Below, piece after piece: positions 9,050 through 63,363 of a stretch of DNA of 64,000 nucleotides. The notes under the pieces were generated by a model. That model was not told where the DNA came from, ran no database searches, and saw nothing but the letters and a program-made list of their open reading frames with translations. Origin of the DNA: Brachionus manjavacas. Its lineage: Eukaryota; Rotifera; Eurotatoria; Ploima; Brachionidae. The number at the start of each line of letters is the position of its first letter. Position 1 is the stretch's first letter. The stretch covers positions 5,456,001 through 5,520,000 of the forward strand of contig JAHQIY010000003.1 in assembly GCA_019054805.1 (NCBI GenBank), written 5' to 3'. The translations under genes were made by a program, and so were the position numbers.

Positions 9050-11112
9050 AATTAAAAAAATAATTCTGTCATGAATGTAGTAGTAGTAGTAGTAGTTTTG
9101 ACTGTAGCTGGCTAGCCAGCGAGTGTGCTGATAAGGCACACTATGACAGCTGATGTGATTGATTGCTGCTCATCCAGCAATCAATGCCTGCTTTAAAGCT
9201 GTTAACATTAGGGGCTTCAACTAATTGATTTGGCAGTGAGTTCCATGTGTTAGCGGTTCTGTTAAGAAAAGTTATCTCTATGTTGGAGCCTCGAAATTTC
9301 TTTGTGATATTTGAAGCAGTGACCTCTTCCTTGGATTTTGGTGACATTAAAATTGTTGCTTTTTTCAACCAATTCTATTCCATGCATGAACTTGTATAAT
9401 TGAATTAGATCACCTCTTTTTCTTCTTTCCACCAGATTTGGAATGTTTAAAGCCTTCAATCTGCTTTCATACGGTTTGTTTCTAATTGAAGAAACAAATT
9501 TCGTAGCTCTGCGTTGAATCCTCTCAAGATTCTCACAATCCGACTTAAGAAATGGAGACCATACAGGCACAGCAAATTCCAAAAGAGGACGAACAAAAGT
9601 TAAATACAATGATCTAAATAACTTACAATCAAAACGAGCGAATGATTTCCTGATGCGACCCAACATTTGATTTGCTTTGTTTGTAGCCTCTATCACTTGA
9701 TTTTTCCATTTGAGATTTGTATTGAAGATAACTCCAAGATCTCTTTCGGTTTCAGACGTTGATAACTGTTTACCATTAATAAAATAAGTGAATTTTTTGT
9801 TTTTATGACCGTAATGCATAACCACACATTTTGATGTGTTGAAGAGAAGAAGCCAATCTTGAGTCCACTTGAAAATTAAATCTAAATCTGATTGAAGTTT
9901 CACTGCGCTTATTTCTGATACCGTTTGCGAGAATATTTTTGTATCATCTGCATACATTTTGACAATATTCTCTATTCCTTTTGGTAGATCATTGATATAC
10001 AAAACGAACAAAAGTGGACCAATCACTGATCCTTGTGGTACACCGCTAAAAATCTCAACCCAATCCGACAAAATTTCACCTTGAACAACTCGTTGTCTTC
10101 TATTTTTCAAGAAAGCTTCAATCCATTTTAGTGTCAGACCATCAAAGCCATACGCTTTCAATTTAGCTATTAGTCGTCTGTGCGGAACAGTATCAAATGC
10201 TTTGGCAAAATCTAGCAGAATTACATCAACAGGAATACTTTTGTCTAGACTCATTGAGATGAAATCTAGAGTTTCCATAAGATTAGATGTACATGACTTT
10301 TTCCTGACAAATCCATGCTGTTCTTTAGATATAATATTGTTCTTATAAAGATAGTCTTCCATTTTAGTTCTTATTATGCTTTCCATTATTTTGCACGGAA
10401 TTGAAGTTAAAGACACGGGACGATAATTGCTGGCCGTTGATTTATCACCTTTTTTAAACAATGGAGTAATATTTGCTGATCTGAATTGTATTGGAAGCTG
10501 ACTATTAGATAAAGACTTTCTGAAAATTAAAGTTAAAGGAACAGTAAAGGCTTCTGCACATTTTTTTAGCAATAGCGGATGAAGCTTGTCTACACCACAT
10601 GATTTATTTTGATTAAGGTCTTGTAATTTTTTATAAACCAATTCATAACTAATATCATTTGGTTCAATGTCAACATATTCTGAACAGTTTTCATTTAGTT
10701 CAGCTACAAAAGGTGGAAGCTCCCCATCTTGTTCAATAACAAAAACATCTTGAAAACATTTATTTAGTAGATTTGATATCTCTTTCGGTTCTTGCGTTAA
10801 TTCATTGTTTGACTTCTTTAATACTTTGATTGATTCTCTGATTACTTGTTGATCATTTAGATATTTGTATAATAATTTTGGATTCTTCTTAGCTTTATCC
10901 ACTAAATTTTGTTCATAAGTTAGTCTGGCTCTTTTTATTTCCGAAGAAACTAATTTACAGATACTTTTGTAATCATTATAAAGATTCATATCCTTCCAGT
11001 TACATGAACAGTTCCTGTATCTAAGATTTTTCTTATTCCTAATTAAGATTTTGAGATCATCTTTTATCCAAGGTTTTGAGATACTTTTCTTTTCTCTGTA
11101 TATTTCCACCTT
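9050..11112 (-). mobile_element. 5'-truncated LINE with nearly intact reverse transcriptase
   Basis: Frame 9262-11109 (-) encodes 615 residues of a jockey/CR1-superfamily non-LTR reverse transcriptase. Landmarks in order: FRSANITPLFKKGDK, NYRPVSLTSIPCKIME, QHGFVRKKSCTSNL, LLDFAKAFDTVPH (motif A), SGVPQGSVIGPLLFVLYIND (motif B), KMYADDTKIF (catalytic YADD), then the C-terminal FVRPLLEFAVPVWSPF and QRRATKFV blocks. One frameshift near 9290-9345 separates the usual ending NRTANTWNSLPNQLVEAPNV, found in frame 9141-9368. The apurinic endonuclease domain is absent upstream of 11110, the normal 5' truncation of retrotransposition. The 3' UTR carries hairpins (GTGTGC...GCACAC; CTGGCTAGCCAG) and ends in a (TAC)n tail at 9079-9096. 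Confidence 0.9.
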
Positions 11113-17959: not shown

Positions 17960-20900
17960 TCAATAAACAAAAAATTTTCGAATCTTCCCCAAATAATTAA
18001 AAAAATAATTTTTCACAATAGATTCAGTAAAATCATTTTGCGGGGAAGGTATTTCACTAATGAGAAGATTTGTATCTGATTCATTTGTAATTATATAATT
18101 AACCTCAATCGTGTTATTGAATCTATCAATCGTTTCTATTTGACTGACATTAAAATTTTTAATATTTTCCGAAAAAAAAGCCTGTGTTTCATTTAAATCA
18201 ACATTGAAATAAAAATTCTCTTCGGTTTGGTTTTCTACAGGAGTTAAAAGTTCAAAGGTTAAATTCCCGACAGATAACATAATAGGAGTCGGAGGTTCAC
18301 TAGTTTGAGTCTCTAAAATTGATTCCATGGTGGTAAGAGGTTCTGTAGTCAAAATTTCAGTGGTTTCTGGTTCCATAGTTATTTCTTCAGTAGTCAAAAA
18401 TGCAGTTGATGAATTCTCCAAAATTGATTCCATGGTGGTAAGAGGTTCTGTTGTTAGAATATTATCAGTGGCATCTCCAGTAGTCAAAATTTCAGTGGTT
18501 TCTGGTTCCATAGTTATTTCTTCAGTAGTCAAAAATGCAGTTGATGAATTCTCCAATTTTGATTCCATGGTGGTAAGAGGTTCTGTAGTCAAAATTTCAG
18601 TGGTTTCTGGTTCCATGGTTATTTCTTCAGTAGTCAAAAATGCAGTTGATGAATTCTCCAATTTTGATTCCATGGTGGTAAGAGGTTCTGTAGTCAAAAT
18701 TTCAGTGGTTTCTGGTTCCATGGTTATTTCTTCAGTAGTCAAAAATGCAGTTGATGAATTCTCCAATTTTGATTCCATGGTGGTAAGAGGTTCTGTAGTC
18801 AAAATTTCAGTGGTTTCTGGTTCCATGGTTATTTCTTCAGTAGTCAAAAATGCAGTTGATGAATTCTCCAATTTTGATTCCATGGTGGTAAGAGGTTCTG
18901 TAGTCAAAATTTCAGTGGTTTCTGGTTCCATGGTTATTTCTTCAGTAGTCAAAAATGCAGTTGATGAATTCTCCAATTTTGATTCCATGGTGGTAAGAGG
19001 TTCTGTAGTCAAAATTTCAGTGGTTTCTGGTTCCATGGTTATTTCTTCAGTAGTCAAAAATGCAGTTGATGAATTCTCCAATTTTGATTCCATGGTGGTA
19101 AGAGGTTCTGTAGTCAAAATTTCAGTGGTTTCTGGTTCCATAGTTATTTCTTCAGTAGTCAAAAATGCAGTTGATGAATTCTCCAAAATTGATTCCATGG
19201 TGGTAAGAGGTTCTGTTGTTAGAATATTATCAGTGGCATCTCCAGTAGTCAAAATTTCAGTGGTTTCTGGTTCCATAGTTATTTCTTCAGTAGTCAAAAA
19301 TGCAGTTGATGAATTCTCCAATTTTGATTCCATGGTGGTAAGAGGTTCTTTTGTTAGAATATTATCAGTGGCATCTCCAGTAGTCAAAATTTCAGTGGTT
19401 TCTGGTTCCATAGTTATTTCTTCAGTAGTCAAAAATGCAGTTGATGAACTCTCCAATTTTGATTCCATGGTGGTAAGAGGTTCTGTAGTCAAAATTTCAG
19501 TGGTTTCTGGTTCCATGGTTATTTCTTCAGTAGTCAAAAATGCAGTTGATGAATTCTCCAATTTTGATTCCATGGTGGTAAGAGGTTCTGTTGTTAGAAT
19601 ATTATCAGTGGCATCTCCAGTAGTCAAAATTTCAGTGGTTTCTGGTTCCATAGTTATTTCTTCAGTAGTCAAAAATGCAGTTGATGAATTCTCCAAAATT
19701 GATTCCATGGTGGTAAGAGGTTCTGTAGTCAAAATTTCAGTGGTTTCTGGTTCCATAGTTATTTCTTCAGTAGTCAAAAATGCAGTTGATGAATTCTCCA
19801 AAATTGATTCCATGGTGGTAAGAGGTTCTGTTGTTAGAATATTATCAGTGGCATCTCCAGTAGTCAAAATTTCAGTGGTTTCTGGTTCCATAGTTATTTC
19901 TTCAGTAGTCAAAAATGCAGTTGATGAACTCTCCAATTTTGATTCCATGGTGGTAAGAGGTTCTGTAGTCAAAATTTCAGTGGTTTCTGGTTCCATGGTT
20001 ATTTCTTCAGTAGTCAAAAATGCAGTTGATGAATTCTCCAAAATTGATTCCATGGTGGTAAGAGGTTCTGTTGTTAGAATATTATCAGTGGCATCTCCAG
20101 TAGTCAAAATTTCAGTGGTTTCTGGTTCCATAGTTATTTCTTCAGTAGTCAAAAATGCAGTTGATGAATTCTCCAATTTTGATTCCATGGTGGTAAGAGG
20201 TTCTGTAGTCAAAATTTCAGTGGTTTCTGGTTCCATAGTTATTTCTTCAGTTGTAATTTTTTCTGATTTAGTCGTTTGTTTTGTAGTCATAATTCCCGTC
20301 GAACTCATTAATTCGCTCTCATTTTTTATATCATTATTTGAAGCATTACTTACTGGTTTTTGATTTTGTTCTATTATAATTTGATTTTGGTTTTCAATTT
20401 GATCGTCTGATATAAAAATATAATTGTAAGTAATACAAATTACATTTTGAGCTAAATCACACCCTGTTATCAGATGATTATATAGCATACTCGTTGGACA
20501 CCTAAATTCTTTATTTTCTTGTAAAGTTTTTCCACATTGTATAAATCTGTTACAATCTTCAGTTAAATATTTAAATTAGTTTTCTTTTTTTTTAGTGTTT
20601 ACCTGTCGGATGAGGGAATAAGCATCCAGGAGGACAATATACTTTTTCTTTAATTTAATTTTCTTTTAGATTTTAATACCTTTAATTATTTTTGAAAATA
20701 CCTGGTTCATTTTTTGGAACTGTTTCAATTAAATTTTCATCTCTTGGTACGAAATTATATGTTTGACAAAAAACGTTTTGAGGTCTATCACAATCAAGGA
20801 TTCTTCTGTTAAATAAAGTTGGATATGTACAGTTTAGAACTATGTTTGTTTTATCAGTATAACCACATTTAATAAATTTTCCACAATCTGTTGGATGTGG

Positions 20901-54542: not shown

Positions 54543-56756
54543 TTATTTAATAAAACTTAAAAAGAAAAAAAGAAAAAGAATAAAAGCTAATTTAAACTTT
54601 AAAAAACAAATTTCATAATTCGATATGGTCGAGCTCAAGCTTAGCATCTTATCATTTTGATAATTTAAACATTGTTCCAACTGGCCTGCATACTCATGAT
54701 CTGGCTTGACGTAATTATTAAGATAGTCACACATTGGATATCCTGAATTAAACATCTCAAGCTCCTCTTGTTCTGTGAGATTTCGATCCATTGGCCCGAG
54801 CTCGACAAAAAAATCTCTTTTTTGCAGCCGGTCATGCGGAGAGCTCAATTTTCCGGTCCTTGCAAAATTGGTCCAATAGCTCATCATCAAGCGACTAAGC
54901 TCACGGTCATCATTCTCAAAATTATCCTTGTCCGTCCAGGGCATTCCAAATATATACTCAATCTCGTAGCCATGTATGACTCCCATCCATTCTGGCCACG
55001 GGTTCTTTCTGCTTCTCTTGCTGAACCGATAGAAATAAGTATTGCTAGAATTTTCTACATTGTATCTATTGGCAAGCTTTATAGTCGGACAACTGTAGAT
55101 TACATCACTTAATATCTTGCTTAACTTTTTCCAAGCTAACAAAGGCGAATTGGTGCCAGTGGCATCCAGGTCAAACTTAAGAACAGAACCGTCCCAATTT
55201 TGATATTTATTATGCTCATTTGAGTACAAATCAAATACACACTTGGCATATTTGTTATAAAAATGCTCATTGACCAACTGGTTTTGTTTTTTAGAGTAGG
55301 TTATTTGGACAATTGGTTTTTGGTCGAAATTAACTGAGGAAATTTCAAAATGTGGAACTTTCTTAGTCCGCAACGATTCCACTAGCCTCTCTAAAACAAA
55401 CTCATTATCATTTGTCACAGTTGGCTTGAGAAATTTATCAAAATCAAAATAATTTCCGTAATAGTTGTAGAAGGAGAAAAATGTGGACTCGTCGTAGTTG
55501 ATGCCAATCAGAATTTCGTGCTGAACTTTGGCCTTGAGCTTTTCGAATCTAAAATCAAGAGGGTCATCGGCAATGAGCCCATGATAGTCCATGGTGGGCA
55601 AAAACTGCATTTTCAAATGATCATTCACATACTCCACTTCGAATTGTAGCTGAGATAAAATGGAAGAATTTTGCTTCATTAGGCACTTGTGTATTTCTTT
55701 TTGTAATCTACTTAGATCAGCTTGGGATACAGTTGTGTCCAAACGGTTTAAATTCAAAGCTGGTTTATTGGTCGTGTAGCTTTCGTTCATTTCCACACAT
55801 CCCACTTTTTGCGCCAGGTCCAAACTTATTTTGAGCGCATCATGAGGCTTTCTAAAGCCTATGTCCAAGTAAGAAGACAAACTTTGAAGAATGCCTCTGT
55901 TAAAAATATGAGCTTTGTTTGATAGTAAAAGCAAATTGATGCTTATTGAACCAGCGCTTTCGCCAAACAGGCAAATCTGGTCTTTAGATCCGCCAAAATA
56001 GTCCAAGTAATTTTCTTTGTACCATTCCAGTGCCATTACCTGATCGGCTAAGCCAGCATTGCCTGGAGCAGAAGAGCTGTTCAAAAACAAAAAGCCAAAA
56101 GGTCCCACTCGGTAGTTGGAAGTGATCATGATGGCATCTTCAAAAGAACTAATGATGGTTCCGTCGGTAATTCTCAAATTGGATGAGCCAGTGTTGAACG
56201 ATCCGCCATAAATCCAAAATAAAGTTGGTCTAAGTTTTTCTCTGTCGCTTCTAAATGCATTTGGATAATAATTTAATCTTTGGTGATTGCTGTAGAGCAA
56301 GCTGTCTTGTTCTTTGGTTACCGGTATCCACAGGTTGAAGTACAGACAATCTTCACTTACACCGTTGGGTGGATTCCACATTTCGGATCCGCGAAAGCCG
56401 GGAAATGTAGTGTCGTACTCTTGCCAACAGGAAGGACGCGAATAGGTTGCATCGTAAATGTTTTGTGGCAGCACATGAGCTAATTTGTGCGGGAATTGGA
56501 ATCTTTTTTCACCAAATGGAGCCTGGGCAAACGGAATTCCGAGGAATTCGTACACAATTTTTTCCTGAATGGAGAATTTTTTTTCTATCCGAACTACTTT
56601 ACGGTTGCCAATAAGTTGCTGTCCATTTTTCAGCTTGATTCTCACTGGCTCTTTGGAGCGATCCACTCTTACTGTTTCCTGCTCGCACCGAGTCTTATAG
56701 GAGCCAAGCTTTGAAAATATGAGTGCCAAAAATAACAATGCAATTGTGTTGCGCAT
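54543..56756 (-). CDS. Acetylcholinesterase-like cholinesterase
   Basis: An intronless frame of 737 residues. Signal peptide about 1-19. The carboxylesterase fold carries cholinesterase hallmarks: the omega-loop disulfide pair C110...C137 around GSEMWNP (W127, the choline-binding Trp), SEDCLYFNLW, catalytic Ser267 in FGESAG, Glu423 in GINYDES, and His595 in GVIHGYEIEYIFGMPW, then SYWTNFARTG. The hydrophobic C-terminus (CFLKFKLAFILFLFFFLSF) could be a GPI-anchor signal or membrane segment. Members hydrolyse acetylcholine at synapses. Differences: about 130 residues longer than typical because of loops at about 150-172 and 320-385, and the oxyanion-hole glycine triplet reads GGS (Ser186). A neuroligin-like or non-synaptic esterase is excluded by the intact triad and cholinesterase motifs. 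Confidence 0.9.
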   Translation of the reverse strand: MRNTIALLFLALIFSKLGSYKTRCEQETVRVDRSKEPVRIKLKNGQQLIGNRKVVRIEKKFSIQEKIVYEFLGIPFAQAPFGEKRFQFPHKLAHVLPQNIYDATYSRPSCWQEYDTTFPGFRGSEMWNPPNGVSEDCLYFNLWIPVTKEQDSLLYSNHQRLNYYPNAFRSDREKLRPTLFWIYGGSFNTGSSNLRITDGTIISSFEDAIMITSNYRVGPFGFLFLNSSSAPGNAGLADQVMALEWYKENYLDYFGGSKDQICLFGESAGSISINLLLLSNKAHIFNRGILQSLSSYLDIGFRKPHDALKISLDLAQKVGCVEMNESYTTNKPALNLNRLDTTVSQADLSRLQKEIHKCLMKQNSSILSQLQFEVEYVNDHLKMQFLPTMDYHGLIADDPLDFRFEKLKAKVQHEILIGINYDESTFFSFYNYYGNYFDFDKFLKPTVTNDNEFVLERLVESLRTKKVPHFEISSVNFDQKPIVQITYSKKQNQLVNEHFYNKYAKCVFDLYSNEHNKYQNWDGSVLKFDLDATGTNSPLLAWKKLSKILSDVIYSCPTIKLANRYNVENSSNTYFYRFSKRSRKNPWPEWMGVIHGYEIEYIFGMPWTDKDNFENDDRELSRLMMSYWTNFARTGKLSSPHDRLQKRDFFVELGPMDRNLTEQEELEMFNSGYPMCDYLNNYVKPDHEYAGQLEQCLNYQNDKMLSLSSTISNYEICFLKFKLAFILFLFFFLSFIK

Positions 56757-62292: not shown

Positions 62293-63363
62293 ATGGTCAG
62301 AGTTCCATTTGTCTACAACAAAACCTACTCTACTCCGCGTCGTCCATTCGAAAAGGAACGCTTGGACCAAGAGTTGAAATTAATCGGCCAGTTCGGTCTT
62401 AGAAACAAACATGAAGTATGGAGAGTGCGCTACACATTGGCAAAAATTAGAAAAGCTGCCAGAGATTTGTTGACTTTGGAAGAAAGAGATCCAAAGCGTC
62501 TCTTCGAAGGTAATGCCTTGCTAAGACGTTTAGTCCGAATCGGAGTGTTGGAAGAGAACAAAATGAAGCTCGATTACGTGTTGGGTCTTAAAGTAGAGGA
62601 CTTTTTGCAAAGACGTCTCCAAACCCAAGTCTTCAATGTCGGTCTTGCCAAATCTATCCATCATGCTCGCGTTTTGATCCGTCAAAGACACATCAGGTAA
62701 AGAACACGACTAAGTCCAGTCTGTTTAGACTAAATTTTGATTAATAGAATCATGACTATTATGGTTAATTTAGTATTAGATTGGATGGGCCACTTGAACA
62801 TTGTTTACAATGTTCTACGTCCATCATGCACAATATTTTCTATTTAACCCTAAGAGGTAATTTATACCCAGATAAGAGGTATTTTTGTCCAATGATGACC
62901 AATAAACGCCGTTTACCTGTATGAAATTTAGTGATTTCAAAAAACTTGTTTAATTTGCTGAGGGCGAAAATCTTTTTAGGCTCTACTTGGCCTTTTTTCA
63001 ATTTTTTAATCATTTTTTTTTAAATAGAGTAAGAAAACAAGTAGTTAACATCCCGTCGTTCATTGTAAGATTAGATTCACAGAAACACATTGAATTTTCA
63101 TTGCAATCACCATTCGGAGGTGGCAGAGCAGGTAATTATTTTTACTTGCTAGATAGACACACGCTTGTCCGATGATGATAGTAAAATCGCCGTTTACCTG
63201 TATGAAATTTTGTGATTTAGAAAAAAGCTATTTTGACTGAGGGCGCGTGTTCCGAAATTTGTTGGTAGAAAAAATGCTAACTTATTTATTTTAAGGCCGT
63301 GTAAAGCGAAGAAATGCCAAGAGAGCTGCTGGCGGTGATGCTGCTGCCGAAGACGAAGAGTAA
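62293..63363 (+). CDS. RPS9: 40S ribosomal protein S9 (uS4)
   Basis: Three exons, 62293-62696, 63028-63131 and 63296-63363, encode 191 residues, close to the usual 194. The sequence is highly conserved: [79 protein letters not shown], the S4 RNA-binding domain with [38 protein letters not shown], and the basic/acidic tail [11 protein letters not shown]...EDEE. It sits in the small ribosomal subunit near the mRNA entry region. Codon use is less AT-biased than its neighbours, as expected of a highly expressed gene. Both introns hold snoRNA candidates. A TTTTTTACCCAAATTTAG acceptor 12 bp before the ATG suggests a 5'-UTR intron or trans-splice site. Confidence 0.98.
62883..62970 (+). ncRNA. Candidate C/D-box snoRNA in RPS9 intron 1
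   Basis: C box ATGATGA (62892-62898), D box CTGA (62958-62961), and a terminal stem formed by TTTTGTCC before C and GGGCGAAAA after D with one bulged G. The guide CGCCGTTTACC (62907-62917) lies just 5' of a D'-like CTGT. It is complementary to GGTAAACGGCG, a phrase I recall as universally conserved in large-subunit rRNA. The same guide occurs in the intron 2 candidate. Confidence 0.75.
63157..63252 (+). ncRNA. Candidate C/D-box snoRNA in RPS9 intron 2
   Basis: C box GATGATGA (63171-63178), D box CTGA (63237-63240). A long terminal stem pairs ACACGC (63159-63164) and GTCC (63167-63170) with GGGC (63241-63244) and GCGTGT (63245-63250), leaving a two-base TT bulge. The guide CGCCGTTTACC (63188-63198) and the following CTGTATGAAATTT are identical to intron 1, while the D-side region differs. 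A paralogous pair from duplication between introns of the host gene. Confidence 0.8.

Follow-up and report, generated by a model that had tools for sequence, protein, structure and literature searches.

The RPS9 locus and its two intronic C/D snoRNA genes

The RPS9 host gene is located at positions 62293-63363 on the forward strand of the window, i.e., of the whole 64-kb stretch of Brachionus manjavacas DNA which was analyzed. When joined, its three exons (62293-62696, 63028-63131, and 63296-63363) read through as a single frame, which encodes 191 residues and ends in a stop codon; the protein, which was named by eye, is presumably RPS9. Both introns, intron 1 at 62697-63027 and intron 2 at 63132-63295, are of the GT-AG type.

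A C/D snoRNA gene was identified in each of the two introns by scanning and folding. The first one (snoRNA 1, intron 1) extends from stem to stem over positions 62881-62971 of the forward strand. The 5′ half of its terminal stem, ATTTTTGTCC (62881-62890), forms ten pairs without interruption with GGGCGAAAAT (62962-62971). An exact C box ATGATGA is located at 62892-62898, and a degenerate C′ box GTGATTT at 62931-62937. The D box CTGA (62958-62961) ends 66 nt before the end of the intron. The second one (snoRNA 2, intron 2) extends over positions 63159-63250 of the same strand. The 5′ half of its stem, ACACGC-TT-GTCC (63159-63170), forms ten pairs with GGGCGCGTGT (63241-63250), whereby the two bases TT are bulged. 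It comprises likewise an exact C box ATGATGA (63172-63178), the same degenerate C′ box GTGATTT (63212-63218), which is thus kept between the copies, and a D box CTGA (63237-63240) ending 55 nt before the end of intron 2. The computed folds contain the same terminal stems.

The sequence checks for C/D snoRNA features, namely RUGAUGA and CUGA boxes, a terminal stem and an rRNA-complementary guide of about 9-20 nt, found all of them in both copies. A sequence-only reading of this DNA had proposed C boxes, D boxes and stem-forming flanks in both introns with a stem of ten pairs in intron 2; exact boxes and ten-pair stems are indeed found in each, that of intron 2 with the additional two-base bulge.

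In AT-rich introns such as these, motifs as short as the C and D boxes might have arisen by chance. A strict scan was applied, which demands RTGATGA, a CTGA starting from 40 to less than 100 nt later, and a stem that scores 7 or more. On both strands of the 64-kb window it returned exactly two matches, which are the two copies in the RPS9 introns, and on 100 dinucleotide-shuffled windows a mean of 0.09 matches per strand. Shuffled versions of intron 1 never passed the scan (0/5000) and those of intron 2 did so four times in 5000, while both introns matched at once in 0 of 5000 paired shuffles. This argues against a chance origin, as does the fact that the guides of both copies match one conserved rRNA site, which leaves such an origin with a practically negligible probability. 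Scan, alignment and stems agree with the earlier proposal of a paralogous C/D snoRNA pair, one per RPS9 intron, with a common guide.

Guide sequences, related families and predicted rRNA target

The word CGCCGTTTACC is present exactly in both copies, at 62907 and at 63188. In the genome assembly, which comprises 114.2 Mb on 61 contigs, the exact guide 11-mer occurs at 8 places and the reversed control word at 15. Only the pair in RPS9 combines the guide with a C box at most 40 bases before and a CTGA at most 69 bases after it.

The complement of the guide, GGTAAACGGCG, was found in a bacterial-type 23S rRNA on a contaminant contig of the assembly as well as in LSU sequences of archaeal type (three) and of eukaryotic type (two), with the types judged by eye. 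The two eukaryotic-type sequences are located in MAGs titled as bacteria. Furthermore, GGTAAACGGCG appears in the 28S sequences printed in the available parts of a vertebrate R2 paper (PMC12180492) and of a stick insect paper (PMC4370867). A yeast 25S probe, which came to light independently of the word search with GGTAAACGGCG, ends in GCGCGGGTAA in the part of the paper available (PMC8044721). The segment occurs in all three domains, but as these are finds of a word search they are no measure of its universality. Of the earlier description of the guide as complementary to a near-universal LSU segment, the LSU segment and its presence in three domains hold, and "near-universal" goes beyond what a word search measures.

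For the species' own rRNA, a search with the 5.8S family revealed one eukaryotic rDNA unit in the genome, the 28S part of which is represented by N in the assembly. A 28S word had 0 exact matches in this genome with its 28S reading N, and a longer 28S word had 0 matches in viral contigs. Because the 28S reads N, the absence of an exact eukaryotic match for the 28S and guide words says nothing about the 28S of the species. Eukaryotic 5.8S and 5S rRNA genes were located on one contig, L026 (136-289 and 9472-9590), on opposite strands and about 9 kb apart, with a part of the stretch unreadable. In addition, contig C45 carries a bacterial-type 23S rRNA and two matches to the 5.8S model just above the cut-off (43.4 vs. 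42 bits), and contig C43 looks bacterial by eye. Both contigs are probably derived from culture bacteria or symbionts within the rotifer assembly.

The copies were compared with known snoRNA families. At gathering scores, Rfam gave 0 matches within the 64-kb window. The vertebrate SNORD87 model (RF00439) scored the two copies with 18.2 and 17.5 bits and did not reach its gathering score of 50; the sn2343 model (RF01172) of Caenorhabditis elegans scored copy 1 with 18.2 and copy 2 with 21.8 bits and did not reach 60. In a search with 95 bases, sn2343 was the Rfam match of copy 2 with the lowest E-value (0.0023). The family snoR27, which had the top raw score for copy 1 (31.1 bits vs. 41), was rejected as its identity, as the guide differs.

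Of the 34274 candidates of the sn2343 model in the own genome, 58 were scored, which gave three matches at E ≤ 10. One of them is copy 2, and the other two lack the guide words. The RPS9 copies are absent among the six matches listed for the SNORD87 model (E ≤ 10; 55 of 108800 candidates scored). These six, with 21-26 bits, lack guide words up to a distance of 80 bases from the locus center and were taken as chance matches. Moreover, both models also match below the cut-off in 12 and 13 of 14 prokaryote control genomes, so that such scores carry no evidential weight. The covariance scores do not place the copies in either family.

The likeness concerns the guide and its register. In the alignment with copy 2, both models, sn2343 (GCCGUUUACCCGUCUGA) and SNORD87 (GCCGUUUACCCAGCUGA), set their D′ box CUGA opposite to ATGA. 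C. elegans sn2343 shares the guide (GCCGUUUACCnGU), the D′ register and a similar length (78 model positions), but differs by its D′ CUGA instead of AUGA and, in the alignment with copy 2, shows little likeness outside of the boxes and the guide. Vertebrate SNORD87, also called U87, shares the guide (GCCGUUUACC) and, with copy 2, the D′ register, hence also the predicted target base. The host gene of human SNORD87 is SNHG6. According to the parts available of two papers, SNORD87 guides the modification of human 28S G3723 (PMC3349704, PMC10911272), and an antisense oligonucleotide printed in the second one is the complement of UUUUGCCGUUUACCCAGCUG. In the available text on C. elegans, sn2343 serves as a qPCR reference RNA. 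Judged by guide and register, the two rotifer copies probably work like SNORD87 and sn2343 and are their homologues; formal family membership is not claimed, and convergence on the same guide could be an alternative to homology.

The register of the known families bears on the position of the D′ box. In the sequence-only reading this box had been set to CTGT. As both models place D′ CUGA opposite to ATGA, the box of snoRNA 2 was assigned to ATGA (63202-63205), and that of snoRNA 1 to ATGA at 62921-62924, within a block identical to that of the aligned snoRNA 2. This box, which begins four bases further downstream than CTGT, is most likely the true D′ box. It defines the guides as CGCCGTTTACCTGT (62907-62920) in snoRNA 1 and TCGCCGTTTACCTGT (63187-63201) in snoRNA 2. 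With these, copy 1 would form 14 pairs, two of them G-U, with GCGGGTAAACGGCG, and copy 2 would form 15 pairs, three of them G-U, with GCGGGTAAACGGCGG in eukaryotic-type LSU rRNA of other organisms. In the two stray eukaryotic-type rDNAs, the score of copy 1 was reached by 0/300 and 0/300 shuffled guides and that of copy 2 by 2/300 and 0/300.

If instead the same snoRNAs use CTGT, ten (copy 1) or eleven (copy 2) pairs result, and the predicted methylated base changes from G to A, the third A of GGUAAAC. This assignment has some merit, as CTGT is one change away from CTGA, just like ATGA, and as its pairing of 10 or 11 bases is matched by only 6, 6, 2, and 1 of 300 shuffled guides. Complementarity by itself favors ATGA only moderately. 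However, the duplex with CTGT is shorter, and it is the register of the two known families with the same guide which decides, so that CTGT appears highly improbable and the earlier assignment was given up.

The methylated base faces the fifth guide base before the D′ box. With D′ at ATGA, this fifth base is C 62916 in copy 1 and C 63197 in copy 2, and it faces the predicted methylated G just before UAAAC. As the spacing between guide and D′ box is equal, the guides of both copies, of SNORD87 and of sn2343 all point at one base. Human G3723 would accordingly be the G just before UAAAC, a position which was deduced from the fifth-base rule and not taken from a printed map.

The copies might have different second targets via their D-box guides and would then not be redundant, a possibility suggested by the stretches before the D boxes, which differ between the copies. 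These D-box guides have no significant match in the two stray eukaryotic-type rDNAs, where shuffles reached the score in 172, 161, 70, and 34 of 300 cases, nor in the own readable 18S-5.8S region, where 44 and 71 of 300 did. Different second targets are therefore regarded as very unlikely.

Divergence of the copies and proposed function

The alignment of copy 1 with copy 2 has 97 columns, 66 of which are identical, and the identity is distributed unevenly. It amounts to 29/30 from the guide through the C′ box, to 11/12 in GTCC and the C box, and to 8/8 in the D box with GGGC (8/9 including the preceding base). The outer stem halves have only 3/9 and 2/8 identical positions, and the spacers 3/9 and 10/20, the latter being the stretch before the D box. 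The guide block had been put forward as the sole conserved part, which does not apply, as GTCC with the C box, the C′ box, and the D box with GGGC are kept as well. Of the ten stem pairs compared, five are the same, one is changed on one side and four are changed on both sides, and all of them pair. Paired changes of this kind form the pattern which selection on structure predicts, here seen from two sequences alone.

Outside of the snoRNAs, the intron flanks have no common word of more than 6 bases, which means that the duplication is old or covered little beyond the snoRNA itself. A DNA search of the genome with copy 1 found no further copies beyond the two in RPS9. One or both copies could also be a decaying or unexpressed paralogue, of which only sequence traces are left; for one of the copies this would overlap with the favored explanation for the other. 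The wide differences in stems and spacers would suit decay. Yet both copies keep every box, the guide and a stem of ten pairs, four of which were changed on both sides, and decay is consequently considered unlikely.

Very probably, both RPS9 introns encode C/D snoRNAs of the SNORD87/sn2343 type, which are old duplicates and redundantly guide a predicted methylation of the G before UAAAC. In the proposed course, a snoRNA gene in one of the two RPS9 introns would long ago have given rise to a second copy in the neighboring one. Afterwards, the stems and spacers would have drifted, whereas the guide and the D′ and C′ boxes were kept, and the two copies would serve as redundant guides for one site. 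After splicing, the intron lariat would be debranched and trimmed to a snoRNP, shielded by the terminal stem and the C/D motif. The D′ guide would form 14-15 base pairs with 5′-GCGGGUAAACGGCG(G)-3′ of the 28S rRNA, and the G directly preceding UAAAC, which corresponds to G3723 of the human 28S rRNA, would be 2′-O-methylated by fibrillarin. For Brachionus, we infer expression of the snoRNAs and this rRNA methylation from the sequence.

A cis-duplication of snoRNAs between adjacent introns of ribosomal protein genes, RPL13A and others, is described for sponges in the available part of a paper, which also cites nematodes and the platypus for this route (PMC3412847). As far as that part goes, the sponge RPL13A case resembles the present one in the duplication within one ribosomal protein host, with functional elements kept and the rest drifting. 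It differs in concerning H/ACA snoRNAs and another host, whereas here C/D snoRNAs in RPS9 of a rotifer are involved (PMC3412847).

The novelty of the pair is therefore limited: an animal guide already known is combined with a duplication route already known, and new is its occurrence in a rotifer. The suggestion that the pair might be undescribed stands insofar as no title on rotifer snoRNAs was found in the literature covered, which leaves out most subscription papers and is no proof of absence; it falls short for the kind of guide and the route of duplication. If the assignment is true, a rotifer joins the vertebrates and the nematode in which this guide is known. This would accord with an early origin, within animals, of the methylation at a G in a core segment of the LSU rRNA. 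The pair also displays which parts of a C/D snoRNA stay after duplication. Furthermore, two well-formed snoRNA genes scoring below every Rfam cut-off suggest that other rotifer snoRNAs are unannotated as well.

An H/ACA-like element in intron 1 and further features of the window

Upstream of the C/D snoRNA, intron 1 contains a region (62715-62836, +) which forms two hairpins in line when folded alone. The fold of 62720-62836 has -30.7 kcal/mol and a z-score of -3.6, and 1/500 shuffles was as low. The second hairpin alone has a z-score of -3.6 (2/500 shuffles as low) and a part of the first hairpin alone one of -1.8 (28/500). As in H/ACA snoRNAs, the upper stem of the second hairpin is followed at a distance of 14 nt by an ACA. 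Several results speak against this identity. The H box ATTAGA deviates from a perfect one, and the second hairpin loses its lower stem when intron 1 is folded as a whole. The Rfam listing has no H/ACA match at the double hairpin, and no second genomic copy of it was found in the assembly.

The two strands of its pocket, CCACUU and UUCUAC, are similar to the complement of GUAGAAUAAGUGG, with a non-canonical geometry. Published sequences of yeast 25S and human 28S rRNA contain GUAGAAUAAGUGG, and as a possible target of the H/ACA-like element this LSU segment is a lead only. On a tentative and rather doubtful reading, RPS9 might be a compact host for two redundant guides of the G3723 type and an undescribed H/ACA RNA (62715-62836), so that one transcript would give rise to the RPS9 mRNA and three rRNA-modifying guides.

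Elsewhere in the window, a 615-residue open frame at 9262-11109 on the reverse strand resembles by eye the reverse transcriptase of a non-LTR retrotransposon. A frame of 842 residues at 17960-20488, also on the reverse strand, consists mostly of tandem Thr/Glu-rich repeats, and a 678-residue open frame (18327-20363) lies on the strand opposite to it. Finally, positions 54543-56756 of the reverse strand encode a cholinesterase-like protein. Among the 120 of its 1582 matches that were listed, it is 93% identical to one of Brachionus plicatilis, in line with a Brachionus rotifer close to that species, followed by unnamed proteins with 80-82% and one of B. calyciflorus with 57%.
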